This document shows, piece after piece, positions 6,435-42,232 of a stretch of DNA of 45,156 nucleotides (position 1 is its first letter; each line of letters opens with the position of its first letter). The position numbers and the translations under genes were made by a program. A model generated the notes under the pieces. The model was given only the letters and a program-made list of their open reading frames with translations. It made no database searches and was not told the DNA's origin. The DNA is from Geobacter sp. (GTDB lineage: Bacteria; Desulfobacterota; Desulfuromonadia; Geobacterales; Pseudopelobacteraceae). The stretch lies in the NCBI GenBank assembly GCA_025360785.1, contig JANYBN010000040.1, positions 1 through 45,156 of the forward strand. The letters are read 5' to 3'.

Positions 6435-6436
6435 AT

Positions 6437-7351: not shown

Positions 7352-7365
7352 GGGGATTCACAGAT

Positions 7366-17480: not shown

Positions 17481-17526
17481 CAGTTAGTTATAAAACAAAA
17501 CTAATTCATTAAATAATTGTATAGCT

Positions 17527-17565
17527 AAAGCCTCCGAGGTTCTCAAAAACCTCGGAGGCTTTTTC
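17527..17565 (+). terminator. Rho-independent terminator after the pil cluster
   Basis: A perfect 15-base stem, AAAGCCTCCGAGGTT (17527-17541) with AACCTCGGAGGCTTT (17548-17562), a 6-base loop and a run of five T at 17560-17564. It ends the plus-strand pil transcript; the minus-strand regulator ends about 100 bases further on. Confidence 0.92.
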
Positions 17566-17668
17566 GGTCTAGCTGGCATTGTGCTAACTTTATGATATTT
17601 ATATTACTTTACCCAGTCTGCCTTACTAACTTCGACAACATCAGTTTTTGTGAAACAGTTCACCCCAC

Positions 17669-22052: not shown

Positions 22053-22238
22053 ATGTCGCACGATCTTTGGTCAGTCATTCTTATAGCCGGCTTAATCGGC
22101 TGGTTATTCTCCAGCATCATGCTGATGTTAAAGGCGTTTCCTCAAAAGGATGTGTTTGTCGTATCGAGTGGAATACGTTGGGGATCGGCTGGTGTCATTT
22201 CGTTCTGTATATGGGTTGTTGGTATGCTAAATGCTTGA
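22053..22238 (+). CDS. Small two-helix membrane protein
   Basis: 61 residues with two hydrophobic segments (about 6-27 and 43-59) joined by a short loop containing KAFPQKD. It lies 7 bases after the glycosyltransferase and overlaps the next gene by 8 bases, which supports its being real. I do not recognise a family. It could be an accessory membrane subunit of the glycosyltransferase or of the electron-transfer proteins downstream. Confidence 0.65.
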   Translation: MSHDLWSVILIAGLIGWLFSSIMLMLKAFPQKDVFVVSSGIRWGSAGVISFCIWVVGMLNA

Positions 22239-23313
22239 AATGTTCTTGTTTTTTAAATATAGAACCTGTATTGCGCTCCGGGTGACTTTTTGCTGTTCCA
22301 TTTGTTTCCTCCTTGTCACCGGTTGTACTACTGCCAGACTGGATGAGGCGGCCTGGCTGGATAAACGCTTGGGTGCCGTCTGGCCCCATGCTCCTGAAAA
22401 ACCTAGAATTAAATTACTTCAGGTGATCAGTGGGCCAAGGGACGTTGTCGAGGCGTCCTCGGGAGTAACAAAAAAAATATTTGACTACATTACCGGTACA
22501 AAAGAGGAATATGTAGAATTTTATACACCGCAGTGTATCGCGGCAGACGGTAACGGGATGATATATATCGCCGACCCGTCGATAGGGCTTGTTCATAAAT
22601 ACAGCCTTGCGGAAAAAGAAGTGCAGTATGTTTTTCAAGCGGGTGAAAAGAGGCTCGGTAGCCCGGTAGGAGTGGCTCTTGATGGTGACGGCAATCTTTA
22701 CATTACCGATGCACAGCTTGCCGCGGTATTCAAATACGATAAGAGCGGGGCGTTTTTGCGTGAGCTTGACGGCAAAGGCAAACTGCAGCGCCCCGCAGGT
22801 ATCGCAGTCAGAAGCAATGGGGATAAGCTTGTAGCTGATGCAGTGGCTGATAAGGTTTTTATCTTTGGCAAGGATGATCTCTTTAAGGGAGAACTTGCCG
22901 GAACCGATTTTACGGAATCATTCAACAGGCCGACGTATCTGGCTGTTGATAAACTTGATAATGTGTATGTCACCGATACCATGAATTTTACCGTCAGAGT
23001 ATTTGACGTCAACAACAGGTATATCAGGAGTCAGGGGCAGATCGGGGATGTACCTGGTTCGTTCGCCCGCCCGAAAGGCGTGGCGCTGGACAGTGACCTG
23101 AATATCTATGTAATGGATTCGATCTTCGGCAATATCCAAATATTCAACCAGAAAGGTCAGCTGTTGCTGTATCTTGGACAGGAAGGAACATCGCTGGGCG
23201 AATTCATGCTCCCAAGCGGGATATTTATCGATCGGAATGATCGAATCTATATCTCCGATACTTTCAACCACCGCATTCAGATTTATCAGTATTTGAAAGA
23301 GAAGGTGCAATAA
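22231..23313 (+). CDS. NHL-repeat (six-bladed beta-propeller) lipoprotein
   Basis: 360 residues. The signal peptide ends LLVTGC (lipid-modified Cys near 32). Six NHL-type blades follow at about 90-358, seen as recurring P.G[IV]A.D..[GND].[IL]Y[IV][AT]D patterns such as PVGVALDGDGNLYITD and PSGIFIDRNDRIYISD. NHL propellers usually bind proteins or ligands. In Geobacter, NHL proteins often sit beside multihaem cytochromes (from memory). The ATG of the first cytochrome overlaps its stop, so it is probably a partner of that cytochrome at the outer membrane or in the periplasm. Confidence 0.88.
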   Translation: MLEMFLFFKYRTCIALRVTFCCSICFLLVTGCTTARLDEAAWLDKRLGAVWPHAPEKPRIKLLQVISGPRDVVEASSGVTKKIFDYITGTKEEYVEFYTPQCIAADGNGMIYIADPSIGLVHKYSLAEKEVQYVFQAGEKRLGSPVGVALDGDGNLYITDAQLAAVFKYDKSGAFLRELDGKGKLQRPAGIAVRSNGDKLVADAVADKVFIFGKDDLFKGELAGTDFTESFNRPTYLAVDKLDNVYVTDTMNFTVRVFDVNNRYIRSQGQIGDVPGSFARPKGVALDSDLNIYVMDSIFGNIQIFNQKGQLLLYLGQEGTSLGEFMLPSGIFIDRNDRIYISDTFNHRIQIYQYLKEKVQ

Positions 23314-24194
23314 TGAATGTTTTTCGTAAGGTAGTACCATTGGCTGTCATTACCGCGATTCTGCTTTCTCTTGCCTATCGGGCCGATGCAAATGCACCGG
23401 GGCCCAAGGTCTCGGAAGCTAAAAACAAGCACAATCTGTCGGCCTCGAATAACGATGCAAGTATCAAATATAGGGCCATAGACGACCCAGCGAATCCCCG
23501 CAGCAAGGAGATCTGTGTTTTCTGCCATACTCCCCACGGCGCCAATGTTGAAGGGCAGGCACCCCTCTGGAATCGTAAGTTTTCGACAGAAATCTTCCAG
23601 CGCTACTCTTCTGGCACTCTTCAAATTCGTAATATTACTGAAGCAGCGTATGGTGAGCCGAACGGTTCCTCCAAACTTTGCCTCAGCTGTCATGACGGTG
23701 TTTCAAACCTCGGAGATGGTTTTAATGGGACCAAAATAGCAATGATTGGTGGTGATGTGCCTGGTGTTATCGATAGTAGTGGTGTTGGTAACTTTGCTTC
23801 ATTCAAGCCATCTACGAACAAAATGAAGACTGGCCACCATCCGGTTTCTTTTGTGTATAACCAAAGCGTTCTCGATTTAATCAAAGCTGCTGATCCCGCT
23901 GAAAAAAGTCAGTATAAGTTGTCTGATCTTCCTCTATATGTAAAGTTGGACAAAAAAAGCAGGATGCAGTGTACCACCTGTCATGATCCGCATCAGAATC
24001 AATCAAATGATGCCGAATGTTACGGTGGGACAGGCAATTGTGCTTCGCCAGATACCAGAAAAATAACGCCATTCTGGGTCTATGGCGTTAGTGGAACCGC
24101 TACAGCTGGAGCTGATCAGGAAGCTGTTTGCATCTCGTGTCACCCCATGGATGCAGGGGTTGGGTTTACTCAGCAGCCATGGACGCCTAATTAG
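23313..24194 (+). CDS. Tetrahaem c-type cytochrome
   Basis: 293 residues with a Sec signal peptide (cleavage near ADA, residue 26). Four CXXCH haem motifs: CVFCH, CLSCH, CTTCH and CISCH. The first (ICVFCHTPHG) is of the doubled-CXXCH type found in Geobacter multihaem proteins. Long linkers separate the motifs, so this is not a compact c3 or c7 fold. AAGGTG precedes an ATG that overlaps the NHL gene stop. Presumably a periplasmic or outer-surface electron carrier. Confidence 0.9.
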   Translation: MNVFRKVVPLAVITAILLSLAYRADANAPGPKVSEAKNKHNLSASNNDASIKYRAIDDPANPRSKEICVFCHTPHGANVEGQAPLWNRKFSTEIFQRYSSGTLQIRNITEAAYGEPNGSSKLCLSCHDGVSNLGDGFNGTKIAMIGGDVPGVIDSSGVGNFASFKPSTNKMKTGHHPVSFVYNQSVLDLIKAADPAEKSQYKLSDLPLYVKLDKKSRMQCTTCHDPHQNQSNDAECYGGTGNCASPDTRKITPFWVYGVSGTATAGADQEAVCISCHPMDAGVGFTQQPWTPN

Positions 24195-24220
24195 GTTGCC
24201 GGGTAATGAAAGGAAGATGC

Positions 24221-25291
24221 ATGAGATTTCTGTATGTACTTGGGGTTAGCTTCGTCTTGGTAGCCGGTCTGCTTTCTATGGTGTTTGCCACCGATGTAAA
24301 GCCGATTCATCTGGATAAAAAGAATACGCGTAATGGTTGTGCTTCCTGTCATCTTGGTTTTGGTTTTAGGGATGGGGGCGGCGCAAGCAAGTGCCTGTCA
24401 TGCCATGGCCCTTCAGATGGGCAGACAGGTCTGGTTTCTCGAGGTACTCAGCTTAAGGATATATCGAAAGATTTTGCGAAAAATTATCATCATCCGGTTT
24501 TTGAGAAAAAGAGTGCTCACACAACTCGTGAAGTGCTCCCTGAAATTGATCCGACAATGCCACGACACGCCGATTGTGCAGATTGTCACAGCCCGCATTT
24601 TGTTTCAACCGACAACCCTTATGCAGGATTGCGTGGTAAAAAGATCGGAAACTTAAGCGCTCCGATTACCAAAGAATATGAGCTTTGTTATCTTTGTCAC
24701 TCAGATAGTGCCAATCTACCGCTCAGATCTGTAAACAAGCGGGTTGAATTTGCAATTGCCAACCCTTCATTTCATCCTATCGAAGGGGAAGGGAAGAATC
24801 AGGCTGTCATCAGCCTCATCAGACCGTACCGGGAAAAGAAAAGTTCTCCAAACGATATATCGATTCTGAAATGTGGCGATTGTCACAGCAGTGACGATAT
24901 TGCTTCGCCGCGTGGGCCCCATGGTTCAAAGTATCAGGGACTGCTTACTGACAATTATTCAACCGGTGATAATATTGTTGAAAGCATCTTTGCTTACGGG
25001 ATCTGCTATAAATGCCATAAAAGATCGAGTATTCTGGGAAATGAAACTTTCCCATTGCATTCGCGGCATATTACAGGCGAACGCAACCCTAAAGCCGGTG
25101 GGACGTCCTGTTATACCTGTCATACGTCACACGGCAGTGTTGAAAATAAATATCTGATACGATTCAACCGCGATTATGTAACCGAAAGTTCTACCGGAAA
25201 ACTTAAATTTGTCGAGAAGGGTATCTACAATTTCCGTGGTGAGTGCTGGCTGACATGCCACGGAGTCGATCACAATCCTAGATCATACTGA
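24221..25291 (+). CDS. Octahaem c-type cytochrome (seven CXXCH and one CX3CH site)
   Basis: 356 residues with a signal peptide ending VFA. Haem motifs in order: CASCH, CLSCH, CADCH, CYLCH, CGDCH, CYKCH, CYTCH, and near the C-terminus CWLTCH, which has three residues between the cysteines. The ATG at 24221 has AGGAAG upstream; an ATG at 24206 would add five residues before the signal. Probably exported to the periplasm or cell surface with its neighbours. The unusual last site may be a real haem site or a degenerate one. Confidence 0.88.
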   Translation: MRFLYVLGVSFVLVAGLLSMVFATDVKPIHLDKKNTRNGCASCHLGFGFRDGGGASKCLSCHGPSDGQTGLVSRGTQLKDISKDFAKNYHHPVFEKKSAHTTREVLPEIDPTMPRHADCADCHSPHFVSTDNPYAGLRGKKIGNLSAPITKEYELCYLCHSDSANLPLRSVNKRVEFAIANPSFHPIEGEGKNQAVISLIRPYREKKSSPNDISILKCGDCHSSDDIASPRGPHGSKYQGLLTDNYSTGDNIVESIFAYGICYKCHKRSSILGNETFPLHSRHITGERNPKAGGTSCYTCHTSHGSVENKYLIRFNRDYVTESSTGKLKFVEKGIYNFRGECWLTCHGVDHNPRSY

Positions 25292-25304
25292 CAGGAAAAC
25301 TAAT

Positions 25305-25757
25305 ATGATAAAACTGAGCCTTAATGCAGTTCTGCCGGCATTGTTTGTACTTTTTTCATGTAGCGCCGTATGCGCTGTTGAAGATGTAAAGGTTAGCCCT
25401 CATTCAGATGCAGGCGACTGTGCCATCTGTCATGTTGCCACAGAGAACAAGCTGCGCGGATGGTTCGTCTTCGGTTCCACCAAAAGGGAGATGAGAGCTG
25501 ATCTTGATCAGTTATGCTTAAAATGCCATCCGGTTGAAACGACTCATTCATATGAATCTTTGGCGGTCGGAAAAGGCCACGCAACCGGCAAAAAACCCTC
25601 AATTAATCGTCAAAATCTTCCGCTTGCAAGTGACGGAACTATCACATGCGCCACTACCTGTCATAACATGCACGTAACCGCTGATGACAGGCGTCTGCAG
25701 CTTAAGTACTTGAGGGCGCCTTTCAGCTCTCTGTGCGTATCTTGTCACAATGTGTGA
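25305..25757 (+). CDS. Small multihaem c-type cytochrome (three CXXCH and one CX3CH site)
   Basis: 150 residues with a signal peptide ending VCA (about 24). Motifs: CAICH, CLKCH, CATTCH (CX3CH) and CVSCH four residues before... the extreme C-terminus, where the protein ends CVSCHNV. AGGAAAA precedes the ATG. It is the last gene of the operon that starts with the glycosyltransferase, and a terminator follows at 25785. Its short length and terminal haem suggest a compact periplasmic carrier. Confidence 0.88.
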   Translation: MIKLSLNAVLPALFVLFSCSAVCAVEDVKVSPHSDAGDCAICHVATENKLRGWFVFGSTKREMRADLDQLCLKCHPVETTHSYESLAVGKGHATGKKPSINRQNLPLASDGTITCATTCHNMHVTADDRRLQLKYLRAPFSSLCVSCHNV

Positions 25758-25851: not shown

Positions 25852-27060
25852 ATGGCGCTATATTCCTGCAAACTTGGTGCATCAGACGGTAAAATTCTTC
25901 TCAGAGAGTTTGAGGCCGCAGACAGTGGCGTTCTGCGCAAAAACCTTGAGGATCAGGGTTTTTTTGTCTTTGAAGTGAAAAAAAAGCCATTTCAGTTTCT
26001 GTTTGATAAGGGTATCAAACGGAGAAAGATTGATAACAAGGCTCTTTTGACCTTCAATCAGGAAATGCTTGTGCTGATCAAGGCAGGTATGCCGATCATG
26101 CAGGTACTTGATGCAATTTTGGAACGTCACGATTCCGGTGCGTTATATGAAGTTTTGATTCAGGTGCGTGAAGATGTAAAGGCGGGTGCAGCATTGTCGG
26201 TTGCGATGGAGAAACATGGACGTGCGTTTCCTTATCTCTATGTTGCCTCTATTCGTGCCGGTGAACGGACTGGCGATCTTCCTCAGACCATCAGGCGCTA
26301 TATCGAATATTTGAAAAGAGTAGGCACGCTCCGTAAAAAGATCATAGCAGCCGTATTTTACCCCTCCATCCTCGTTGTCTTCGCTTTTCTAGCGATTACT
26401 CTTCTGCTGGTATATGTCGTTCCTACATTTAGTCAAGTGTACGCCGATTCAGGATCAAAGCTTCCCGCCCTGACCCAGTTTTTGATCACATTCACATCGA
26501 TACTCAGGCGATACTTTATCTTTGGAATCATCGCTGGTATCGGTTTGCTTGCCGCATTCAGATCGTGGAAAAGCACCGAAGCGGGCCGATACGCCCTCGA
26601 TCGTTTCAAACTTACCGTCCCGGTTGCAGGAGATGTTTTTACCAAATATTCAGTGGCCGGTTTTACCCGTACCCTGGCAACTGTTCTGGGAAGTGGTATA
26701 CCTATTATAGAATCACTGCGCATGTCGATCGGAACTTTGAATAACGTCTATATGGAGAAACGCCTGTTCGAGGCGGTCCGTTTTATTGAAGAGGGTGGGC
26801 GGCTTTCGGTTGCCCTTGAACGTATTAACATCATGCCGCCATTGGCATTACGCATGCTGGGAGTGGGCGAAACCACCGGATCAATCGAAGATATGCTGGT
26901 TGATATTTCCAATTATCTGGAAGATGAACTTGAGGAACGGATGCAACTGCTTACAACTGCCATAGAACCGGCCATAATGCTGGTTATGGGTGTAATCATC
27001 GGTGTCATCATTATTGCGATGTATCTTCCTATTTTCAAAATTGCAGGCACGATAGGATAG
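25852..27060 (+). CDS. Type II secretion inner-membrane platform protein, GspF/PilC family
   Basis: 402 residues with two copies of the T2SSF domain (about 65-190 and 270-390) and three membrane helices (about 168-192, 218-238, 372-396). Typical segments are GMPIMQVLDAI, YPSILVVFA and GSGIPIIESLRM. It forms the platform that the ATPase acts on. First gene of a long operon; only AAGG very close to the ATG serves as ribosome site. The adjoining genes show it serves the secretion system rather than the canonical pilus. Confidence 0.93.
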   Translation: MALYSCKLGASDGKILLREFEAADSGVLRKNLEDQGFFVFEVKKKPFQFLFDKGIKRRKIDNKALLTFNQEMLVLIKAGMPIMQVLDAILERHDSGALYEVLIQVREDVKAGAALSVAMEKHGRAFPYLYVASIRAGERTGDLPQTIRRYIEYLKRVGTLRKKIIAAVFYPSILVVFAFLAITLLLVYVVPTFSQVYADSGSKLPALTQFLITFTSILRRYFIFGIIAGIGLLAAFRSWKSTEAGRYALDRFKLTVPVAGDVFTKYSVAGFTRTLATVLGSGIPIIESLRMSIGTLNNVYMEKRLFEAVRFIEEGGRLSVALERINIMPPLALRMLGVGETTGSIEDMLVDISNYLEDELEERMQLLTTAIEPAIMLVMGVIIGVIIIAMYLPIFKIAGTIG

Positions 27061-27062
27061 CG

Positions 27063-28781
27063 ATGCAAACCTTCAGAAGAAAAAATATCGGAGTAATTCT
27101 GATGGAACGGGGATATCTCAATCCCGATCAGATGCCGATCATAATTGATAAGCTGGACACAACCCGGAAGCGTTTTGGTGAAATTGCCATTCAGGAAGGG
27201 TTTGTTACAGAAGAAGACCTGGCGCGAGCTTTGGCGGAACAATTCGGACTTGAATACGTGGACCTGCGGAATTTCAAGATGGACTCCGAGCTGCTAAATC
27301 AATTGCCTCCGGATGCAATTTACCGGTTTCATTTTGTGCCGCTTGAGATGCAGCAGCATTCCATAGTTATTGCTGTTTCCGACCCGACCGATGTGGTCAA
27401 CCTCGATGAGCTTGAGTTGCTGCTGGATCGCCAGGTTCAGATTCGTATCGCTTCCGATGCTGCGATTTCAGCGGTAACCAAAGCCGGCGAGGGAACGCGC
27501 CGGGTTTTGCGCGAAGTTTCCGAAGATTTTATGCTTCAGTTAGTCAAGGAAACCGATCGCGGTGAAGAAGTGTTATCGGTCGAAACCCTGTCTGATGATA
27601 CCAGCCCGATCATCAAGCTGATCAATACGACCATTATGGACGCGCTGACCCGCAGAGCGAGTGATATCCATATTGAAACCGGCCTTGACGGGGTTGATAT
27701 AAAATATCGTATTGACGGTGTTCTGTATAAAGCGAACGAAACGATAGACCAGCACTTTCAGGCTCCGATTATTTCACGACTGAAGGTTATGAGCGAGCTT
27801 GATATTTCCGAGCGCCGCATTCCGCAGGATGGTCGCTTTAAAATCCGCTTTGGAGAGAAATCGATCGACTTCCGCGTGTCGATCATGCCGAGCTCTTTGG
27901 GCGAGGATGCCGTTATCCGTATTCTCGACAAGGAGAGCATTGCCAGCGATCTGAAAGGATTGACACTGGAAAACCTGGGCGTTAGTGAGCGTGAGATCAA
28001 ACGTCTGCGCAAGAAGATCCGTGAACCCTACGGAATGGTGCTGGTTACCGGCCCGACCGGCTCCGGAAAAACAACAACGCTCTACGCAGCTTTGACCGAG
28101 ATTCATACCGGTGAGGACAAGATCATCACTATTGAAGATCCGGTTGAATATATGCTGCGCGGCGTGTTGCAGATTCCGGTTAATGAAAAAAAAGGTCTGA
28201 CATTTGCCAAGGGATTGCGCTCAATCCTGCGCCATGACCCGGACAAGATCATGGTCGGAGAAATTCGCGACTCTGAGACCGCTCAGATAGCCGTCCAGTC
28301 TGCCCTGACCGGACACCTGGTGTTCACAACAGTTCACGCAAACAACGTATTTGACGTTATCGGGCGTTTCATCCATATGGGCATCGATCCCTATAATTTT
28401 GTATCATGCCTTAACTGCGTCCTGGCACAAAGGCTGGTAAGAAAAGTCTGTATCGCCTGTCGCCGTCCGGTACATTACAGTGATGAAGAGTTGATCGAAG
28501 GTGGTGTCGATCCTGAACGTTTCAGGGGGATGACGCTGTATGAGTCGCAAGGATGTGACGAATGTCATGGCACCGGTTATCGTGGTCGTGTTGCAATTGT
28601 CGAACTTCTGGAACTGAATGACCAGCTCCGTGATCTCATTATTGCCAAAGTCCCCGCTACCCAACTGAAAAAAGCTGCCCGTGACGCCGGCGTCATGTTT
28701 CTGCGGGATTCAGCTGAAGAGAAAATGGCGGCTGGTATAACGACACTCAAGGAGATAAACCGCGTCACGTTTGTTGAATGA
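27063..28781 (+). CDS. Type II secretion ATPase, GspE/PilB family
   Basis: 572 residues. An N-terminal GspE-N/MshEN-like region (1-150) is followed by the hexameric motor domain: Walker A GPTGSGKTTT (about 330), Asp box TIEDPVEY, Walker B KIMVGEIRD, His box TVHANN, and a zinc tetracysteine (CIAC about 463, CDEC about 500) typical of GspE and PilB. It powers pseudopilus assembly from the cytoplasmic side. AGGA precedes the ATG, two bases after gspF. The N-terminal repeat lacks the Arg-Leu-Gly pattern of the best c-di-GMP binders, so I do not claim nucleotide binding. Confidence 0.95.
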   Translation: MQTFRRKNIGVILMERGYLNPDQMPIIIDKLDTTRKRFGEIAIQEGFVTEEDLARALAEQFGLEYVDLRNFKMDSELLNQLPPDAIYRFHFVPLEMQQHSIVIAVSDPTDVVNLDELELLLDRQVQIRIASDAAISAVTKAGEGTRRVLREVSEDFMLQLVKETDRGEEVLSVETLSDDTSPIIKLINTTIMDALTRRASDIHIETGLDGVDIKYRIDGVLYKANETIDQHFQAPIISRLKVMSELDISERRIPQDGRFKIRFGEKSIDFRVSIMPSSLGEDAVIRILDKESIASDLKGLTLENLGVSEREIKRLRKKIREPYGMVLVTGPTGSGKTTTLYAALTEIHTGEDKIITIEDPVEYMLRGVLQIPVNEKKGLTFAKGLRSILRHDPDKIMVGEIRDSETAQIAVQSALTGHLVFTTVHANNVFDVIGRFIHMGIDPYNFVSCLNCVLAQRLVRKVCIACRRPVHYSDEELIEGGVDPERFRGMTLYESQGCDECHGTGYRGRVAIVELLELNDQLRDLIIAKVPATQLKKAARDAGVMFLRDSAEEKMAAGITTLKEINRVTFVE

Positions 28782-28798
28782 CCGGAACAGGATACGCC

Positions 28799-29725
28799 AT
28801 GTTGTTTGCCAGAAAGATGATCGGAATTGAAATCAGCCAGCTCGGGGTTGTCTGCGCTTTGACAGGTGGTAGTGCCTCTTCGCCCCGTGTCGAACGGATC
28901 GCTCAAGCGCCATTTTCTCCAAATACTTTGCAGGTTTCACTTCGTGAACAGAATATTCTTGATCCAGACTCATTCGTGGCAGGCTTGAAATCAGCCTATA
29001 ATCTATTGCTCTGCCGATCTGACAGGGTCTCGGTGTCACTGCCTGATGCGGTAAGCAGGATTATGCTGCTGGATCTTGAAGGACGCTTCAAAAGTCATTC
29101 AGAAGCTCTTGATCTGATCCGCTGGAAACTGAAGAAAAGCATACCGCTTGATAGTGCCGACACCCACATCGATTATCAGCAGTTGACGGTTCGTGAAAAT
29201 GGCGATCTGGCACTGTTGGTAGCAATAGCATCGCGTTCAGTTATTTCTCAGTATGAAGATCTGATTACGAAGGCGGGACTTTCTCCAGCTCGTATTGATT
29301 GTAATACGTTTAGTATCTGCCAGCTTTTTGATCGTCGCCTGTCATTGCAAGAGGAGTGCATCCTGATATCGTTTTACGGCAGTACCCTGTCAATAGTGGC
29401 CTTTGTCCAGGGGATCCCTGAATTTATACGTATCAAGGATCTGCACGGTACGTTGGCGACGGACAGTCGTGTCTACATGGAAATAAACAGCTCGATGCTG
29501 GTTTATAAAGAACGTTTTCCTGAACGGCCGGCGCAGTCGGTCTTCTGCGTTGCATCGCCAGATGTTGCTCAGAACTTTCAGGAGATGGTCGCCGAAGCAA
29601 CCGGACTAACGACGGTTTTCTTAGAGACAAAAGGTTCTGTAACCCCCGGTAATTCTGCCCCAGGCGACCAGGTACGGCTATTTCCCTGCACTGCTGCCAT
29701 CGGTACGGCCTTGAGGAGTTTCTGA
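28799..29725 (+). CDS. PilM-like actin-fold protein of the secretion system
   Basis: 308 residues. A PilM/GspL-cytoplasmic-like protein: MIGIEISQLGVVCAL resembles the phosphate-1 strand, and VSVSLPDAVSRIMLLDL and SPARIDCNTFSICQLF match the PilM fold. There is no membrane helix, so it is PilM-like rather than a full GspL. The nucleotide motifs are weak compared with pilM at 9325. AGGA before the ATG at 28799 favours this start; an ATG at 28778 overlaps the gspE stop and would add seven residues. Its stop overlaps the next ATG. Confidence 0.8.
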   Translation: MLFARKMIGIEISQLGVVCALTGGSASSPRVERIAQAPFSPNTLQVSLREQNILDPDSFVAGLKSAYNLLLCRSDRVSVSLPDAVSRIMLLDLEGRFKSHSEALDLIRWKLKKSIPLDSADTHIDYQQLTVRENGDLALLVAIASRSVISQYEDLITKAGLSPARIDCNTFSICQLFDRRLSLQEECILISFYGSTLSIVAFVQGIPEFIRIKDLHGTLATDSRVYMEINSSMLVYKERFPERPAQSVFCVASPDVAQNFQEMVAEATGLTTVFLETKGSVTPGNSAPGDQVRLFPCTAAIGTALRSF

Positions 29726-30261
29726 TGCGTTTCACGATTAATCTTGCGACACGCACATATCTTGACCATCGTTTGCTCAACCGGCTTGCATTTTGTGTTA
29801 TTGCTGTCCTTGTCGCTGTTCTGGGATGGAATATCAGTCGCATAGCATCAAACATGGGGGAACAGAGCCGGTTGAACGCAGAAATTACCGCAATTCAAGC
29901 CAGATCGGGAACTAAACCTGACGGTATATCCGAAACAGCATCCGTTCATCAGAAGACCAGTATCCGGTTTTATAATGAAATTATAGAGCGCAAGAGTACA
30001 AACTGGCTTAGTCTGTTGGATCTTCTTGAGAATGTCACACCGGAGGGGATTTCGCTGTCAGCACTCACTCCGGTTAAAAAGCTGGAAGAGTTGAAACTGG
30101 AGGGGCGTGCAAGATCTTTTAAAGTTGTACAGCTGTACCTTGAAAAACTGGAGTCGTCGAAGTATTTTTCAAATATTCTGTTATTATCACATCAGAATAT
30201 GGTTGCAGGTGAAAATGAACGTGGCGTACAATTCACAATTTCCTGCAAGGTAGTGAATTGA
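29725..30261 (+). CDS. PilN-like inner-membrane protein of the secretion system
   Basis: 178 residues with INLATR at residues 5-10, corresponding to the PilM-docking INL motif of PilN, then one membrane helix (about 21-41) and a periplasmic domain (LSLLDLLENVTPEGISLSAL) of the PilN/GspL-periplasmic kind. Overlaps both neighbours. The previous gene is PilM-like, so the pair together take the place of GspL. Confidence 0.83.
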   Translation: MRFTINLATRTYLDHRLLNRLAFCVIAVLVAVLGWNISRIASNMGEQSRLNAEITAIQARSGTKPDGISETASVHQKTSIRFYNEIIERKSTNWLSLLDLLENVTPEGISLSALTPVKKLEELKLEGRARSFKVVQLYLEKLESSKYFSNILLLSHQNMVAGENERGVQFTISCKVVN

Positions 30262-30806
30262 TGAAACAATATTTAATTGAAATAATCCGTCAGAAATGGC
30301 GACTTCTTATTGTAATTCTGACTCTTTTACTGTTCAACACGGTTCTGGGATATGTGGTTTCAGCCTATCAGCTCCCATCAGTTGCGGATCTGCAAATCAA
30401 GTGGAATGACCTGCGACGTCAGGAAGCTAATGCCGGTAAGGTTGATGCTGCGACCCTTTTTCATCAGGGAACCGCAGACCTCGAAAAGCTGAAGGCGCAT
30501 ATACCTGAAAAACGGGAATTTGCCAAGGTTCTGAACGATCTGTATGAAACTGCCGCAAGTAGCGATGTCGAAATTAGATCGCTCAGTTATACGCCGACGC
30601 AGATCAAGGAAGAAGCTCTATATTCCTACAAATTGACGCTTTCAGTTAGCGGCAGCTATGCGGCAGTTAAAAGCTGCCTGTCCGATCTACAGAACAACCA
30701 GAAACTGCTTGTCGTTGACTCGGTTACTTTTTCAAATGGCGATCCTTTTGTCGAAAATGTTGTCATGAATTTGAATATTACAGTGTATCTCCGGGAGGGC
30801 GTATGA
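30261..30806 (+). CDS. PilO-like inner-membrane protein of the secretion system
   Basis: 181 residues: one membrane helix (about 15-38), a coiled-coil segment (about 45-90) and a PilO/GspM-like periplasmic domain (SGSYAAVKSCLSDLQNNQKLLVVDSV). The ATG at 30261 overlaps the previous stop, with AAGG upstream. Sequence is divergent, so the call rests on size, topology, motif pattern and position between PilN- and PilP-like genes. Confidence 0.78.
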   Translation: MKQYLIEIIRQKWRLLIVILTLLLFNTVLGYVVSAYQLPSVADLQIKWNDLRRQEANAGKVDAATLFHQGTADLEKLKAHIPEKREFAKVLNDLYETAASSDVEIRSLSYTPTQIKEEALYSYKLTLSVSGSYAAVKSCLSDLQNNQKLLVVDSVTFSNGDPFVENVVMNLNITVYLREGV

Positions 30807-31417
30807 ATCGTCAACGCCTTATTCTGTTCGTTTTGGTGATACTCTTTGGCATAGCCGCACTCTGGAGTTACAGCGCTATGCCACGTTTCAAAACTGTCAG
30901 CACGTCCTCCAAAACGAGTCAGCCGGCAAAGCCTGTTGTTGCTACAACAATTAAAACATCCCGTGAAGTGGACGATGGCACCAAGCTGAAAATCAGTCTG
31001 TTTGATAAGGAACCTTTAGAGTTTAAAGGGTATCGACGTAATATTTTTAAGCCTGTTTTTGTAGATGAATTGAAATATGCCAAACAGCAAGCCGTTGCAA
31101 TCAAGCCGCCGCCACCTCCGCCACCGAAACCGGCACCGGTAGTGTCTGCTGCTCCAGTCCCGCAGGCGATGATATTACCTGAAGCCGCTCAATTGGCACG
31201 TTTTACATTTTTGGGTTTCTTGAAAAAAGGGTCTGTAAAAACCATATTCTTGTCAAACGAAAAGGATATTCTGCTTGTCAAAAAAGGGGACATCGTTGCC
31301 GGTCGCTACGAAGCAACCGATATTACTGATCAAGCGTTGACGCTGACGGTCACCGATTCCGGTGATGAGATTGTCATTCCTTTGATAGAAAACCGGCCGC
31401 TTGCTGCTGCTAAATAA
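30803..31417 (+). CDS. PilP/GspC-like periplasmic connector
   Basis: 204 residues with an N-terminal membrane anchor (about 7-25), a linker with a run of seven prolines (PPPPPPPKPAP, about 101-111) and a small beta domain (ARFTFLGFLKKGSVKTIFLSNEKDILLVKKGD) of the kind that in PilP or GspC binds the secretin N0 domain. There is no lipobox, so it differs from pilP at 11561 and resembles GspC in being membrane-anchored. GGGAGGG precedes the ATG, which overlaps the previous stop. Confidence 0.78.
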   Translation: MNRQRLILFVLVILFGIAALWSYSAMPRFKTVSTSSKTSQPAKPVVATTIKTSREVDDGTKLKISLFDKEPLEFKGYRRNIFKPVFVDELKYAKQQAVAIKPPPPPPPKPAPVVSAAPVPQAMILPEAAQLARFTFLGFLKKGSVKTIFLSNEKDILLVKKGDIVAGRYEATDITDQALTLTVTDSGDEIVIPLIENRPLAAAK

Positions 31418-31445: not shown

Positions 31446-33998
31446 ATGCGCTACCTGAATCTGACTTCACATATTGCTTTACTAATTGCATTTGCTCTGC
31501 TCTCAGCCTGCGCCTCCACTGCTACACGTGCTTTCAAAACGGCAGAAAAGCTTGAGTTGGAGGGGAAATATGAAGAGGCAATGTATAGCTATGCAGAGTC
31601 CTTTAAAAATGATCCGACGGTCGGTGAGGCCCGGATCCGTTTTTTGAAATCCCGCCAGAAGGCCGCCGATAAGCGTTTCAAACAGGGAATAGACTTGGTT
31701 GCCAAGGGAAATCATGTCGATGCACTGACAGAATTCCAGGCGGCACAGGGTATTGATTCGACCCAGGGGCGCTTCGTACAGCAGATCGAGATTTCAACCC
31801 GTTACAAAGATGCTCAACAGGCATTTCAAGAGGGTCAGGATTTTGAAAAGGGTAACAAGCTTAAGGATGCCCATCGACAATACATTCGATCTGCAGAACT
31901 GTTTCCTAAAAACACAGAATATCAGGCTGCCCTTGAACGAATTACTCTGCTGCGCAAAAGCAAGCTGGAAGGTTATGAATTGCGTCTGAAGTCCAACAGG
32001 CCTATTACTCTCAAGTTTAAAGAAGCCAAGATAAAGGATGTCTTCACTATTCTGACTCAGCTTTCGGGGATTAATTTTGTCTTCGATGAGAGTATCAAGG
32101 ATGTACCTGTCTCAATTTTTATTGAGAATGCGTCGTTCCAGCAGGCACTTGACCTGCTCACTAATATGAACAAACTCGGCACAAAAAATCTGAACGAAAC
32201 GACTATGCTGGTATATTTGAGTTCGCCTGACAAGAGCAAGCAGTATGATGACATGGTTATGCGTACCTTTCATCTTAACTACATGGACGCAAAAAAAGCC
32301 ATTAACCTGATTCGAACTATGGTTCAGGTGCGCAAAGCGTATGTGAATGAAGATTCAAACTCGATAGTCATACGGGATACAGAAGAAATTGTGGCAGTGG
32401 TTGAAAAAATACTTGATGCTAACGACCTGCCCGAGGCAGAGGTCGTGCTTGATGTCGAAGTGATAGAAGTCAGTGATAAGAACGCCGAAAACATCGGATT
32501 GTTGTTGAGTAATTACAATGTGCAGTTAGGAGCCTTTTCGCCGGCCAACAACCTTCTTGCAACGTCGCTGGCTGGTGCGGCAACGGTTGCTCCTGCAGCT
32601 GGTACCACCACCACTACTGCGGCTACAGTTGATAATCTGGTGCGCGCCTTTTCAATGAAGGGTTTTGGCGGCTATGTTACCGTACCGAATGCAACCTTCA
32701 ATCTCGGCAAAACACTTGCCAAGGGCGAAGTGCTTTCCAACCCGAAAATCCGGGTTAAAAACAAGGAAAAAGCAAAATTCAACGTCGGCACCAGGGTGCC
32801 TATTACTACTACGACTCTGACTGGGACGACATCACAAGTAAACGTCCAGTATGTGGACGTTGGAGTCAAGGTTAATGCAGAGCCGACCATACAGCTCAAT
32901 AACGAAATATCCATTAAACTCAGTCTTGAGGTCAGCTCAATCCTTACTAAAGAAAAAGTTGGCGCAGACGGTTTAACTACCGTTGTGACAATTGGTACAC
33001 GAAATATTGATACCGTACTCAGTCTGAAGGATAACGAAACAAGTATAATTGGCGGACTCATACAAAGAACTGACAGCAATGACAAAACCAAGCTGTATCT
33101 GTTGAGTGATATACCGCTGATCGGGCCGCTGTTTACCAACTCCAATACATCCAAGGACAAGACCGAGCTGATGCTGGCAATCACCCCACGGTTGGTCAGG
33201 GGAATTCCTGTGCCGCTCCCCGGTCTCGCCTCTTTTGGTTCCGGCAAAGAAGATCACCCTTCTTTGATAAAGCCGATGTCATCGTTTGATCTAGAACCGG
33301 TTTTTGAGGGTGAAGCGCCGTCGAAAGGGGTTGAAAATAAATCCTCTATTCCTCCGCTTTCAGCCAAAAGGGCGGATTCTGCTGCCAACGGATTGGCTTC
33401 GCCTGCCGTTCAACCAGCGCCTGCTGTTCAGCCTGCTCCAGTCGTTCAGCCGACTCAACCAGTTCAACCAGTTCAACCAGTTCAGAAGAAACCGGAACCA
33501 ATGGTTGTCCAGCCCACTCAAGTACCTGTCAGTGCACCTGTGCCATCCACGGATCCACTTGCACCAGCAGCAATGGCTCCAGTTCAACGCGGTCTTCTTC
33601 AAATAGCTGCTCCTTCGACCGCCTCCGTTGGCCAGCAGTTTAGTCTTGATATTAAGATCAGTGACGTAAATGATCTGGCCAATGCCCAGTTCGTTCTTAC
33701 ATATGATCCGGTTTTTGTGGATTTTGTATCAATCAGTGAAGGTGCGTATATGAAAAAGGATGGCAAGCCGACCGTTTTCAGCAGTAAGGTTGATGCTGCT
33801 TCCGGTACTGTGACGGTCACGTTGGGGCGGGTTGCAGGTTACGGTGGCGTGTCTGGTGGCGGTACGCTGGCGACGGCGTCATTCAGGGCAAAAAATCAGG
33901 GGCCCGCAAATTATGCCTTCACAAAAACTACATTCACCACGTCATTCAGTGCAACTCTGAACATTCTCCCATTCAGTACGGCGGTGGATATTCGTTGA
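31446..33998 (+). CDS. TPR-containing liposecretin with C-terminal cohesin-like domain
   Basis: 850 residues from the ATG at 31446 (GAGGAG nine bases upstream; an earlier start at 31401 lacks support). Order: lipoprotein signal ending LLSAC (Cys near 21); TPR-like helices (about 25-160); N0/STN domain (ITLKFKEAKIKDVFTIL, about 185-245); N1 domain (about 275-340); secretin pore (AEVVLDVEVIEV to ELMLAITPRLV, about 345-590); a Pro/Gln/Val-rich linker with VQP repeats; and a cohesin-like domain (about 717-850). Forms the outer-membrane channel of the secretion system. The lipid anchor could replace a separate pilotin. Secretins normally end in a short S-domain, so the C-terminal fusion is unusual. 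Confidence 0.9.
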   Translation: MRYLNLTSHIALLIAFALLSACASTATRAFKTAEKLELEGKYEEAMYSYAESFKNDPTVGEARIRFLKSRQKAADKRFKQGIDLVAKGNHVDALTEFQAAQGIDSTQGRFVQQIEISTRYKDAQQAFQEGQDFEKGNKLKDAHRQYIRSAELFPKNTEYQAALERITLLRKSKLEGYELRLKSNRPITLKFKEAKIKDVFTILTQLSGINFVFDESIKDVPVSIFIENASFQQALDLLTNMNKLGTKNLNETTMLVYLSSPDKSKQYDDMVMRTFHLNYMDAKKAINLIRTMVQVRKAYVNEDSNSIVIRDTEEIVAVVEKILDANDLPEAEVVLDVEVIEVSDKNAENIGLLLSNYNVQLGAFSPANNLLATSLAGAATVAPAAGTTTTTAATVDNLVRAFSMKGFGGYVTVPNATFNLGKTLAKGEVLSNPKIRVKNKEKAKFNVGTRVPITTTTLTGTTSQVNVQYVDVGVKVNAEPTIQLNNEISIKLSLEVSSILTKEKVGADGLTTVVTIGTRNIDTVLSLKDNETSIIGGLIQRTDSNDKTKLYLLSDIPLIGPLFTNSNTSKDKTELMLAITPRLVRGIPVPLPGLASFGSGKEDHPSLIKPMSSFDLEPVFEGEAPSKGVENKSSIPPLSAKRADSAANGLASPAVQPAPAVQPAPVVQPTQPVQPVQPVQKKPEPMVVQPTQVPVSAPVPSTDPLAPAAMAPVQRGLLQIAAPSTASVGQQFSLDIKISDVNDLANAQFVLTYDPVFVDFVSISEGAYMKKDGKPTVFSSKVDAASGTVTVTLGRVAGYGGVSGGGTLATASFRAKNQGPANYAFTKTTFTTSFSATLNILPFSTAVDIR
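33406..33486 (+). repeat. Short tandem repeats encoding a VQP-rich linker
   Basis: Nine-base units related to TTCAACCAG recur in frame, perfect at 33463-33471 and 33472-33480 and degenerate on both sides, encoding Val-Gln-Pro. This joins the secretin pore to the cohesin-like domain. Its length may vary between strains through slippage. Confidence 0.7.
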
Positions 33999-34549
33999 TG
34001 AAAACCATGGCGAATCAAAATGGTTTCACCTACATTTTGGTTATGACAGTTATTATGATTATGGGGATCATGCTTGGCATGGTTGGACAGTCGTGGAAAA
34101 TTGTCAGGCAGCGGGAGCTTGAAGAGGAAATGATTTTTCGAGGCGATCAGGTCGCCGAGATAATATACCAGAGATTGAGCTGCATGACAAATCCGGCTAC
34201 AGCAATTAACACAAACCAGTTTTTGTGGACAATCAGTTCTCCTAATGGAACTATTCTTGATGATCTAATTGCAGGTAGGGAAGATCGTTGCTTTAACGCC
34301 CCCCCAAGAAAGTTTCGTCTCAGGCAGTCTGCGATTATAGATCCAATGACGAACAAACCTTGGAAAATTGTCCCTCCGGTCGGTGATAATACCCGTTTTG
34401 CGGGTGTGGCAAGTGAAAGTGCAGAAAAACCGTTCAGGCAGAAATTTCAAGCAATATATGATTCACAATTGCTTGATGGAAAAGAGAAATATAGTGACTG
34501 GGTTTTTACGTGGGAATTGAAGAAACCATCACCTTTGATTGTTAAGTAG
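33998..34549 (+). CDS. Minor pseudopilin lacking Glu5 (GspK-like position)
   Basis: 183 residues with a prepilin peptidase site NG/FTYILVM and a long hydrophobic helix (to GMVGQSW). Position +5 of the mature protein is not Glu, unlike most pilins but like GspK-type tip pseudopilins. The C-terminal part contains LDGKEKYSDW. The ATG at 33998 overlaps the secretin stop; the preceding TTG at 33995 would add one residue. Assignment to GspK is by analogy; it is shorter than GspK. Confidence 0.78.
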   Translation: MKTMANQNGFTYILVMTVIMIMGIMLGMVGQSWKIVRQRELEEEMIFRGDQVAEIIYQRLSCMTNPATAINTNQFLWTISSPNGTILDDLIAGREDRCFNAPPRKFRLRQSAIIDPMTNKPWKIVPPVGDNTRFAGVASESAEKPFRQKFQAIYDSQLLDGKEKYSDWVFTWELKKPSPLIVK

Positions 34550-34559
34550 GTGTGATGAT

Positions 34560-35051
34560 ATGCATAGTATGCTAAAAACCTGCAAAGGGCTTTCACTTAT
34601 AGAGTTGGTTGTAACCATGACTATTCTTGGTATTCTGGCGGCCGGAGTTATGCCGTTAACTCGAATGGCTGCTCAGCGAACTAAAGAGATCGAGCTCCGC
34701 AGAAATCTTCGTACAATTAGAACAGCGATTGACGACTACAAACGTAAATTTGACAAAATGCCGGAGGGACCGTTGAAAATCGGTGCCGGTTACCCGAAGG
34801 ATTTGCAGGAATTGCTGGACGGTCGCGAATTCGGCGACGCTAAAGCCGGTAAAATAAGATTTTTGAGGCGTAAAATATACGACCCTTTTCGGCCGCCTGA
34901 AAGTGACAGCGATGATATGTGGGGCTGGAATTTACGCTCCTCTGTCGATAAGCCCGATTCAAGTTCCTGGGGCAAAGAAGACGTGTTTGATGTTTACTCG
35001 ATGAGTGAAGGAACCGCACTTGATGGTAAAACAAAATATAGTGAGTGGTAA
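34560..35051 (+). CDS. Pseudopilin with standard prepilin site
   Basis: 163 residues. The prepilin site is KG/LSLIELVVTMTILGILA, with Glu at mature position 5. A GspG/GspH-like body follows: a helix with RRNLRTIRTAIDDYKRKF, a DPF motif, and a C-terminus ending KTKYSEW. AGGTG precedes the ATG; a TTG start at 34539 would overlap the previous gene and is less likely. Part of the pseudopilus of this system. Confidence 0.85.
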   Translation: MHSMLKTCKGLSLIELVVTMTILGILAAGVMPLTRMAAQRTKEIELRRNLRTIRTAIDDYKRKFDKMPEGPLKIGAGYPKDLQELLDGREFGDAKAGKIRFLRRKIYDPFRPPESDSDDMWGWNLRSSVDKPDSSSWGKEDVFDVYSMSEGTALDGKTKYSEW

Positions 35052-35055
35052 TAAC

Positions 35056-35520
35056 TTGATTCATAAAGCTTTGATACCAGCTTCCAGAGGAAAACGGAAA
35101 CTCGATCGACGAGGTTTTACGTTGATTGAGCTGATGATTGTCGTTTCGATCATCGGTATACTGGCCGCCATAGCCGTACCTAACTACCAATGGGGCATTA
35201 TAAAAGCGCGAGAAGCTGTGTTGCGCGAAGATCTATATAATTTCAGGTCAGTTATTGATCAATTTCATGCTGATCAGGGTAAATACCCGGATTCTCTTGG
35301 CGAGTTGAAGGAGAAGAGGTATATGAGGGAAATCCCCAAGGATCCCTTTACCAATTTGGCGGATTGGGTTGAAGTTCCACCACCTCCAGAGCCAACAGGA
35401 ACAACTCCTGCAGCGCCATCTGGCGGGGGGGGCACTTCATCTCCCGGAAACTTGTATGATGTTCATAGCAATTCGAATAAGATAAGTCCTACAAATAACA
35501 CACCCTACAATACCTGGTGA
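35056..35520 (+). CDS. GspG-like pseudopilin (possible OxpG counterpart)
   Basis: About 154 residues with prepilin site RG/FTLIELMIVVSIIGILAAIA, a helix with REDLYNFRSVIDQFHADQGKYP, the DPF motif, a Pro/Gly-rich insertion (about 110-135) and C-terminus NTPYNTW. It has the general form of the major pseudopilin GspG. The start is uncertain: TTG at 35056, GTG at 35041 and ATG at 35023 are all in frame and none has a strong ribosome site; the long positively charged leader is unusual. In G. sulfurreducens, OxpG is (from memory) the pseudopilin of an atypical type II system, and this is the likely equivalent. Confidence 0.85.
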   Translation: MIHKALIPASRGKRKLDRRGFTLIELMIVVSIIGILAAIAVPNYQWGIIKAREAVLREDLYNFRSVIDQFHADQGKYPDSLGELKEKRYMREIPKDPFTNLADWVEVPPPPEPTGTTPAAPSGGGGTSSPGNLYDVHSNSNKISPTNNTPYNTW

Positions 35521-39743: not shown

Positions 39744-39762
39744 CATAATACGTAACAAAACG

Positions 39763-39815
39763 GCAAATCCACCTCAATCCTCCTTTTTTAGAGTGCTTGA
39801 GGTGGATTTGCTTTT
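39763..39815 (+). terminator. Rho-independent terminator after ctpA
   Basis: A perfect 15-base stem, GCAAATCCACCTCAA (39763-39777) with TTGAGGTGGATTTGC (39797-39811), a 19-base loop and TTTT. It marks the end of the 14-gene transcription unit that begins at 25852. Confidence 0.82.
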
Positions 39816-39828
39816 GAATATGACAAGG

Positions 39829-39856
39829 TTGCATAGCCAGCAGTAATAAATATAAG
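39829..39856 (+). promoter_or_regulatory. Promoter of the polysaccharide deacetylase gene
   Basis: TTGCAT (39829-39834), a 16-base spacer and TATAAG (39851-39856), directly after the ctpA terminator and about 20 bases before the start codon. Confidence 0.5.
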
Positions 39857-39876
39857 TGCAAAGAATTCGGTAAATA

Positions 39877-40839
39877 ATGGCCGTTCCAACCAGAAATAAA
39901 TCAAGAAATAATAAGCCGACCGGTTCCCGCGTGGCGGCACTGGTGATTCTGGTTCTGATCGTTGGAGTCGTTGCCGGGTATTATTTGTTTTCACCAGTAC
40001 AAAAAACAGAGGTGGTAATCCGGAAACCGGAACTTTCTGCCGTTAAGCCTGCAATCCCTGCAGCATCAATTCCGAAACACTCCGCAATTCATTTGTCCCC
40101 ACATAAAGAACAAAGCGATTATTCGTCATCGGCTACAATTCCAGAAACCGAAAAACCCGGATCATTGGTCAGAAAATCCGCACGATTGGCGATTGTTATC
40201 GATGATATGGGGAACAGCTTGTCCGAAGCCCGTTCGCTGGCGGCAATAAAAGTCCCGTTGACGTTTGCAATAATTCCAGGTCTGCGCGTTGACAGAGCGG
40301 TAGCGGCATTTGCGGCATCAAATAAAATTGAAACAATGATACATATTCCGATGCAGTCTAAAGGGTGGCCGGAGCGCCGTCTGGAAGCAAATGGTCTTTT
40401 GGTATCAATGGATGCAGCCGAATTGCAGGAGAAAGTGTCCGGGTTTGTACAACAGTTTCCCGGAGCAGTCGGAGCCAATAACCACATGGGATCGGAATTT
40501 ACGGAACAAGAGGAAAAGATGGCGGCTGTCCTTCAAATTCTGAAGAGTAAAAATTTATTCTTTATTGACAGCGTAACGTCGCCGGAGAGTGCCGGCTTGC
40601 GGGTGGCACAGCGGCTTGGCGTAAGGTCTGCAAGGCGGAATGTATTTCTTGATAATGAACAGGAGCGCAGCTACATTTTTGGCCAGCTCCATCAGGCGGT
40701 CAGGATGGCCAGGAAAAACGGATCAGCGATAGCTATCTGCCATCCCCATCCGGCCACTATTGAAGCCCTCGCTGCGTCGCTGCCAGAACTTGCCGGACAG
40801 GGTGTGCAGCTTGTTTCTGCCTCACAACTTGTCAAATAG
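39877..40839 (+). CDS. Divergent polysaccharide deacetylase (YibQ family)
   Basis: 320 residues with one membrane anchor (about 18-42), a low-complexity linker (to about 100) and a DUF610-type deacetylase domain: LAIVIDDMGNS with the Asp pair, MIHIPMQSKGW, GANNHMGSEFT (His and Asn/Ser near the metal site), DSVTSPESAG and AICHPHP. The order envC-ctpA-yibQ recalls the yibP-yibQ neighbourhood of other Proteobacteria, which points to cell-wall work. Substrate unknown. The end overlaps the convergent ParA-like gene by eight bases. Confidence 0.88.
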   Translation: MAVPTRNKSRNNKPTGSRVAALVILVLIVGVVAGYYLFSPVQKTEVVIRKPELSAVKPAIPAASIPKHSAIHLSPHKEQSDYSSSATIPETEKPGSLVRKSARLAIVIDDMGNSLSEARSLAAIKVPLTFAIIPGLRVDRAVAAFAASNKIETMIHIPMQSKGWPERRLEANGLLVSMDAAELQEKVSGFVQQFPGAVGANNHMGSEFTEQEEKMAAVLQILKSKNLFFIDSVTSPESAGLRVAQRLGVRSARRNVFLDNEQERSYIFGQLHQAVRMARKNGSAIAICHPHPATIEALAASLPELAGQGVQLVSASQLVK

Positions 40840-42232
40840 ACAAGATCGCTTCTGCAAAGTGTTTCTGCAAACGGTGGATAGTCTTGTACGACTCTTCATG
40901 CAGGATTGCCTCAGGGTTACCGGGATCTACCGGATATACCGATAGCCAGCTTTCTTTCCGCAAGGCACCTTCAAATCCTGCCAACGCCTCATTTAGCAAC
41001 AAATATAAACGATCATGTATACCATCAAATTCCCCGGCATCAAATCCAGGCATTTCAAGGTCCTTCTGAAGCAGATGTTCCCCAGCCATGCTGAACTGGC
41101 GATAATCAAGCCGAGATGTTTCAGAGCTGATCCGTGGCACCAAAAGTGACACGACTCTGGTCGCCTTGTCTGCAACAAGAGCCCGTGCCGCATCAAATGT
41201 CGGATCATTTTGCTGCAGGCCATAAAGTGTCGAGCAGAGCATGCTGCTGACACAATTGCCATGCAGGAAACCACGTGCGGTACGATCTGATGTTTCGAAA
41301 TAGAAGCTGCGGTCATCGGAATGCTCAGCCAGCAGAGCTCCGCAGATCAGACAGCGTTCCGCCAGACCCTCTAGTCGTGCCAGATATGACTCCTTCTTGT
41401 GAGCCTCTTTTTCAAGCAGCCAGGTGTGATACAGGCAGGCCCTGGTTTCTTTGGTTGCATCGACGCTTCTGAGGATGTCACGGGTTATTTCCATGAACTG
41501 GCCGTGAACTTCGGTGCCTCTGGCGTGGGTCAGGATCGGGTAAATCTTGCCCTCGGGATTTGTATTCAGGCTTTCGACTTTCGGACTTTTTGATATATAG
41601 GTGTCAAGGCAACGGTAGCCGCGATTGACGGCAATTGCCCGCAGAAGTGACTTTTGATCCTTGAAAACCCCCTCAAACTTGATGCGCGAGTCAATCAGGC
41701 AGGGGATCAGTGCCAATGACTTTTTGTCAATGCCGCGCTGGTCAAACAGCGCAAAGATGTTTTTGCAGTTTTCCAGGCTTGGCAGATCTTTGACCGGAAT
41801 CAGCACCCGGTCGGCGGCATACAGGGCATTCTGGGTCAGTATGTTGAGATCCGGCCGCGTATCAATAATTACAATACCGGAGATGCCGGATTCAGCTAGC
41901 ATCCGAGTCAGGGTCATAGGCCCTTTGAAGCGTTCATGGATATCGCCCAGTTCTGTTGACGAACGAATGTAGCCGACTCCATACTGCCCTGTCTGAACGA
42001 CCTCGCCGGCCTTTGCCCCCATCAGAAGAGCATGGACATCGGGAGCGTCCTCTTTCCTTTTTTGCAGTTCGAACATTTTGTCGATCGTAAAATGATTATC
42101 AAAGGAGAGGATCGTTACCGGCAGATCCTCGCGCATCGCTTTCAGATAAATTGCCAAATTGGTAGCGAGGGTCGTCTTGCCGACGCCCCCTTTTTCTGAA
42201 GATATTGTTATGGTATATGGATAGGCATGCAT
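40832..42232 (-). CDS. ParA-like ATPase with Cys/His-containing C-terminal extension
   Basis: 466 residues. The N-terminal half is a ParA/MinD-type ATPase: deviant Walker A KGGVGKTT (residues 14-21), VIIDTRPDLN and VLIPVKDLPSLEN. It lacks a nearby parB or membrane-targeting helix. The C-terminal half (about 260-466) is not one I recognise; it has CLICG and HGNC segments (about 297-340) that could bind zinc, flanked by acidic and helical regions. It may place a cellular cargo. Start is the ATG at 42232, with only a weak ribosome site. Confidence 0.8.
   Translation of the reverse strand: MHAYPYTITISSEKGGVGKTTLATNLAIYLKAMREDLPVTILSFDNHFTIDKMFELQKRKEDAPDVHALLMGAKAGEVVQTGQYGVGYIRSSTELGDIHERFKGPMTLTRMLAESGISGIVIIDTRPDLNILTQNALYAADRVLIPVKDLPSLENCKNIFALFDQRGIDKKSLALIPCLIDSRIKFEGVFKDQKSLLRAIAVNRGYRCLDTYISKSPKVESLNTNPEGKIYPILTHARGTEVHGQFMEITRDILRSVDATKETRACLYHTWLLEKEAHKKESYLARLEGLAERCLICGALLAEHSDDRSFYFETSDRTARGFLHGNCVSSMLCSTLYGLQQNDPTFDAARALVADKATRVVSLLVPRISSETSRLDYRQFSMAGEHLLQKDLEMPGFDAGEFDGIHDRLYLLLNEALAGFEGALRKESWLSVYPVDPGNPEAILHEESYKTIHRLQKHFAEAILSI

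Follow-up and report, generated by a model that had tools for sequence, protein, structure and literature searches.

In the window analysed here, the whole of the 45,156-nucleotide contig JANYBN010000040.1 from Geobacter sp. (order Geobacterales, class Desulfuromonadia; assembly GCA_025360785.1), the gene for a secretin encodes a C-terminal domain that, judged by sequence profile and predicted structure, is a genuine cohesin, carried on a long linker by the secretin of a Pul/OxpG-like type II secretion system (T2SS). Besides this domain and its conservation we observed, in the same genome and its relatives, dockerin-like tags at the C-termini of large proteins, an adaptor protein, lipoproteins, and genomic linkage among them. 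Our tentative reading, to which we lend a little less than half of our confidence, is that this T2SS recognises its substrates through the secretin cohesin, which would dock the tag or the adaptor, and that lipoproteins then anchor the cargo at the surface. Docking, pore feeding and surface anchoring are the steps that we infer.

An earlier note on this DNA had claimed a cohesin-like domain fused to the C-terminus of a secretin, following its pore and a VQP-rich linker, and had supposed that it might capture cargo or hold a partner. The fusion stands as described, with pore domain, linker and cohesin in that order (Table 1) and the cohesin match well over the PF00963 gathering score. Fold prediction agrees with the profile search: an AlphaFold2 model (pLDDT 97.1) has the cohesin beta-sandwich fold, no different fold is predicted, and in a comparison with the PDB all 50 entries listed are cohesins or scaffoldins. 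The secretin holds a single cohesin stretch, not the several of a cellulosomal scaffoldin. The mean column identity in an alignment (A3) of secretin cohesins from order members only is 66%. The open reading frame (ORF) is listed from a TTG at 31401, and its likely start is the ATG at 31446. The secretin missed the NCBIfam cut-offs both for GspD (TIGR02517, 169.8 vs 351.35 bits) and for PilQ (TIGR02515, 155 vs 284.35 bits), and we therefore regard it as atypical and file it under neither. Of the interpretation in the earlier note, the identity and fusion of the domain were thus borne out, while its docking partners, the tags and the adaptor, are candidates; a dock for cargo or a partner is plausible.

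The secretin cohesin is no local oddity, and orthologues that keep the C-terminal extension are found widely in the order and beyond. (G-numbers denote comparison genomes, L-numbers loci fetched and C-numbers contigs of the Geobacter sp. genome.) The secretin is present at E≤1e-40 in 37 of 39 near genomes, the Geobacter sp. genome counted. Of 141 order genomes, 119 have a PF00963 match, over the cut-off in 118; non-secretin cohesins are part of this count. Beyond the order, secretin matches extend across the cohesin in at least 43 of 88 genomes, as the loci read there confirm. Among the 22 order genomes without a match, 17 were tested for the secretin: 13 have distant secretins only or none, G047, G124 and G127 have the secretin without the cohesin, and G131 has fragments only. 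Two secretin copies are present in G125, G137 and G138, one of them apparently without the cohesin (G125 alone was read fully). At L341 of G125 the neighbouring Pul-type secretin genes lie at 6001-8340 and 16289-18706, one with a cohesin and the other with a Pro/Ala-rich tail. Secretin and cohesin read as two overlapping ORFs in G048 (L077, 2982-5395), and the secretin itself reads as two ORFs in G074 (L076, 3443-5859); each may be a split gene or an assembly or frameshift error.

The genome encodes dockerin-like modules in an adaptor, CDP, with both cohesin and dockerin-like parts, as well as in the tags on large proteins. CDP and a CxxCH protein account for the two cohesin matches of this genome besides the secretin. 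The CDP gene is on contig C4 (L071, 1409-2815), not in the window, and encodes a signal peptide, a cohesin (27.4 bits, over the cut-off), a low-complexity linker, a conserved domain and, near the C-terminus, one F-hand-type dockerin-like repeat, DLNNDGVRDYMDEY. In relatives L067, L068, L320 and L321 the gene lies within the pul cluster, flanked by what we take to be genes for a CtpA-like protease and a polysaccharide deacetylase-like protein; it is further downstream in L069 and L323-L325. The site where several relatives hold it is a gap in the window (Table 1). Some tagless genomes have CDP-like proteins or keep part of CDP. A CDP-like protein of G167, from another order, has two dockerin loops (Dockerin_1 15.2 bits, under the cut-off) and no cohesin, and those beside the secretin in G083 and G088 have no recognisable cohesin and dockerin parts. 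The N-terminal part of CDP is retained in G025, G028, G033 and G087, although Pfam sees no cohesin in the last, so that "no tag, no adaptor cohesin" fails as a rule. On contig C25 a probable lipoprotein (L072, 5144-6025) carries a cohesin match of 20.5 bits, below the threshold, after 3 CxxCH motifs.

Two genes separate the C4 CDP gene from one for a large protein whose C-terminus carries a tag. Searched with a first profile, built on this tag and the corresponding one of G114, the Geobacter sp. genome yielded five tagged proteins at E≤5.2e-7. A six-row profile detected tags in 101 of the 141 genomes of the order. Among the 200 class genomes that are at least 90% complete it detected them in 86, of which 84 belong to the order. 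The match ends no more than 6 residues from the C-terminus in 86 of 87 tag ORFs (86 loci). The 80 loci from relatives are the highest entries of the match list once in-frame stops and very short ORFs are passed over, and they over-represent close relatives. Dockerin_1 (PF00404) was the commonest family in a Pfam scan of 86 tags (22 at E≤0.1, best 8.5e-7), the NCBIfam GC-type dockerin model matches 16, and 6 of 9 PDB matches are dockerin chains (E 0.024-1.6), the best match being a designed repeat protein (E 8e-4). A regular expression found a canonical first F-hand loop in 20 of 86 tags; that of the L308 tag reads GDLDRDGEVAVPDALRAL...GDVAPLVNGKPTPDGTINIGDALVIL. The expression for the second loop matched 0 tags, was uninformative and was dropped; judging by the rows shown, one in three, an insertion appears to interrupt this loop. 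The tags of the Geobacter sp. genome itself were not matched by PF00404 at E≤10, being too divergent for Pfam. PF00404 and tag matches overlap in 25 of 29 rows, picked by eye and hence biased, which shows only that both models match the same places. In the Geobacter sp. genome Dockerin_1 matches are confined to one Ser-rich protein on C184 (L004, 724-1737) with several EF-hand-like loops, an EF-hand-repeat protein that on inspection we do not regard as a dockerin protein. Scans of 12 tagged proteins showed Ig-like, FN3, chitobiase-C, NHL, glucodextranase-B, TSP3 and PKD domains and, in 5 cases, Cu-oxidase domains; L087 has no Pfam match, and no cellulase family was found among the 12. At L316 (10620-16462) lie two tandem proteins, one of 1061 aa and the other of 877 aa, that may be tagged cytochromes: both have 2 CxxCH motifs and end in a dockerin-like tag.

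A candidate partner lipoprotein family is encoded next to many tagged genes, and the one member modelled has a predicted cohesin-like fold. A PF00963 search of 23 small lipoproteins at E≤1 matched 0 of 23, and we therefore speak of a cohesin-like fold and not of PF00963 members. Sequence homology to the secretin cohesin is not claimed, as hhalign gave probabilities of 0.1-1% for three lipoprotein groups. A lipoprotein hidden Markov model gave weak matches to the adaptor cohesin region (E 3.3e-5 in L313, 6.1e-5 in L315 and 4.9e-5 in L317, in a small ORF set); its iterated form, with drift uncontrolled, matched 44 of 45 candidates. The automatic classification admitted some "long lipoproteins" that look unrelated (e.g. 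L238, L242, L258) and missed L220 and L267, filed under "other". A fragment of the family (E 1.3e-13) is present on contig C95 (L311, 3932-4231), with no tagged neighbour in the stretch fetched.

In the receptor reading, a ring of secretin cohesins beneath the outer membrane would dock dockerin-type modules. There may be up to 15 per pore, because T2SS secretins are pentadecamers (PMC10550240), and by analogy they would be periplasmic, because the C-terminal S domains of T2SS secretins are bound by pilotins on that side (PMC9239104). By a direct route the secretin cohesin would dock cargo, OmpB-like multicopper oxidases for instance, by its C-terminal tag; by an indirect route it would dock the adaptor by its dockerin-like end, and the cohesin of the adaptor would hold the cargo tag. 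Either would concentrate folded cargo at the pore and feed export, after which a cohesin-fold lipoprotein encoded beside the tagged gene would bind the tag and keep the cargo on the surface. Such anchoring is consistent with the description of OmpB as outer-membrane associated (PMC5566968, where Qian 2007 is cited for surface location) and with one expression table (PMC10599522) in which GSU1395, whose number follows that of ompB (GSU1394), shifts in the same direction as ompB. The complete pathway, a Gram-negative cohesin-dockerin sorting route in which the secretin cohesin reads the tag directly or via the adaptor and a lipoprotein then anchors the cargo, is a possibility that we hold with marked reserve.

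Co-occurrence bears on these proposals, with the caveat that all counts are raw genome counts that ignore kinship. Among the 200 class genomes, 85 have both tag and adaptor, 1 (G124) has the tag only, 12 have the adaptor only and 102 have neither. Both tag carriers beyond the order, G186 and G224, also have the adaptor, and three consecutive genes of G186 (L308) encode tagged cargo, a lipoprotein and a CDP whose cohesin is over the Pfam cut-off. Read by eye, tag and adaptor are both missing from individual genomes in several genera, G093 and G122, and G006, G012, G103 and G105, beside sisters that have both. For the secretin, a count compiled by hand over 112 order genomes at least 90% complete, taking secretin-borne cohesins only, gave a cohesin in 80 of 84 tagged and 15 of 28 tagless genomes. 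The exceptions are G124, whose Pul secretin has no cohesin, G019, where no Pul secretin was found, G022, which is fragmented, and G052, with a secretin ORF of 967 aa and the cohesin row unlisted; G048 was counted as lacking the secretin cohesin, yet has one in a separate ORF (L077). This count supersedes an earlier one of any PF00963 match in 141 genomes (both 98, cohesin only 21, tag only G073, G097 and G124, neither 19), because adaptor cohesins confound the latter.

Part of this evidence weighs against a receptor role. The tag tracks the secretin cohesin less tightly than it tracks the adaptor; the class-level search, meant to strengthen the link between tag and secretin, showed the secretin cohesin to be wider than the tag and to occur irrespective of it; G006, G103 and others keep it without tags or adaptor; and tags occur in G073 and G097, two incomplete genomes in which no Pul secretin turned up. 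Many genomes retain the secretin cohesin although neither tag nor adaptor can be detected in them, and this makes for the main rival: the tag, the lipoprotein and the adaptor would constitute a genuine cohesin-dockerin system for surface anchoring, but the secretin cohesin would predate the tags and have another ligand throughout the class, such as one of the other Pul components. We judge this somewhat unlikely, as it must contend with the adaptor genes that lie within the pul cluster or just downstream at the loci named above, and with G012, G093, G128, G129, G135 and G140, where only distant secretins were found and neither tags nor adaptor occur.

It is improbable, in our estimate, that the cohesin is instead a structural or envelope-binding module, helping the secretin to assemble or attaching it to peptidoglycan or polysaccharide, with no dockerin ligand. 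The fixed position and good conservation of one cohesin per subunit would suit such a module, and the superfamily in which the cohesin fold is placed is carbohydrate-binding-like. However, the long linker suggests reach rather than structural contact, and the Pul-type secretins without the cohesin (G047, G124, G127 and the second copies in G125, G137 and G138) still have the pore domain. Some secretins do carry envelope-binding domains, such as the N-terminal SPOR-like domain of LspD (PMC9239104). That the cohesin faces outward and holds dockerin-bearing proteins at the pore mouth, as a surface anchor and not a receptor, would fit the outer-membrane association of OmpB (PMC5566968, citing Qian 2007), but is very improbable given the periplasmic binding of pilotins to known T2SS secretin C-termini (PMC9239104) and the separate lipoproteins already suited to anchoring.

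The secretin gene stands in an operon of T2SS/type IV pilus-like order, namely GspF, GspE/PilB, PilM, PilN, PilO-like, the GspC/PilP position, secretin and pseudopilins, of which two are clear and one is weak. The genes after the pseudopilins are presumably ftsE/ftsX-like. Just upstream, within 22231-25757, genes at 23313, 24206 and 25305 encode multi-CxxCH, multihaem cytochrome-like proteins, and L069 has a 7-CxxCH protein at the matching position. A gene on the opposite strand (40832-42232), which we take to encode a ParA/MinD-like ATPase, adjoins the pul cluster in several relatives too. The Geobacteraceae Pul system, needed for OmpB secretion, has the pseudopilins PulG, OxpG and TklG and lies near cell-division genes (PMC3543383); the window operon resembles it in gene content, as compared by description and with one pseudopilin weak.

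Table 1. Secretin domains, operon genes and adaptor-site gap in the window.
Feature	Position	Strand	Evidence
GspF/PilC-like inner-membrane protein	25852..27060	+	PF00482
GspE/PilB-like ATPase with MshEN domain	27063..28781	+	PF00437, PF05157
PilM-like protein	28778..29725	+	PF11104 27.1 bits (cut-off 27)
PilN-like protein	29725..30261	+	PF05137
PilO/GspM-like protein	30258..30806	+	PF04350, PF10741
GspC/PilP-like protein, inferred by position	30803..31417	+	no Pfam match at E≤0.1
T2SS-type secretin lipoprotein with C-terminal cohesin	31446..33998	+	lipobox LLSAC ~20 residues past ATG 31446
Secretin N-domain, STN-like	32070-32180	+	residues 224-260, under Pfam cut-off
Secretin_N	32259-32438	+	residues 287-346; PF03958 31.7 bits, over cut-off
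Secretin pore domain	32721..33200	+	residues 441-600; PF00263 133.7 bits, over cut-off
P/Q/V-rich linker, pore to cohesin, including VQP repeats	33198..33584	+	
Cohesin domain, 137 aa	33585..33995	+	PF00963 55.6 bits vs gathering score 24.1
Pseudopilin-like protein, weak	33995..34549	+	GspH/GspG NCBIfam matches under cut-off; no Pfam match
Pseudopilin, N-methylation motif	34539..35051	+	PF07963, TIGR02532
GspG-like pseudopilin	35005..35520	+	PF07963; TIGR01710 under cut-off
133-bp gap, protease-like gene to next gene	39744..39876		no ORF listed

We know of no general linear signal for T2SS cargo, and the recognition of folded cargo is a long-standing question. With a dock on the pore, a discrete tag at the C-terminus of large proteins, an adaptor and a possible anchor all in one genome, T2SS cargo recognition becomes directly testable. 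If the complete pathway holds, the export tag of a T2SS would have been identified as a module, and its receptor would be part of the pore itself. The findings also bear on how Geobacter-type bacteria place metal-reduction proteins on their surface. Among the open-licence literature listed, where absence is unprovable, no title or abstract joins a cohesin to a secretin or T2SS.

As a whole, these results suggest that a plug-and-socket of the cellulosome type may also guide protein export here. Non-cellulosomal cohesins and dockerins were reportedly described by Peer et al. in 2009 (cited in PMC5244752). Like those modules, which occur outside cellulosomes in, among others, syntrophic sulfate reducers and ANME archaea and are read as adhesins (PMC10553843) or as of unknown function, the present ones form no cellulosome; unlike them, since the passages on them show no secretin link, the cohesin here is on a secretin. 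The operon is like the atypical Pul/OxpG T2SS of Geobacteraceae in its PilB/GspE, PilC/GspF and PilMNO-like genes, secretin, pseudopilins and presumed cell-division neighbours, and that system is reported to secrete the multicopper oxidase OmpB (PMC3543383, PMC10599522 and PMC5566968, citing Mehta et al. 2006). The word "cohesin" occurs 0 times in PMC3543383, PMC10599522 and PMC3495685. Compared with the type I and II cohesin-dockerin pairs of cellulosomes (C. thermocellum CipA, A. cellulolyticus ScaB), there is here a single pore-borne cohesin and no multi-cohesin scaffoldin, the 12 tagged proteins scanned have no cellulase family, and the candidate partners are lipoproteins. Like PEP-CTERM, GlyGly-CTERM and the T9SS CTD, the tag is a short C-terminal domain, common to unrelated large surface proteins, that tracks a partner family from genome to genome; unlike them it is dockerin-like, and its candidate readers are cohesin-fold proteins rather than a processing enzyme.
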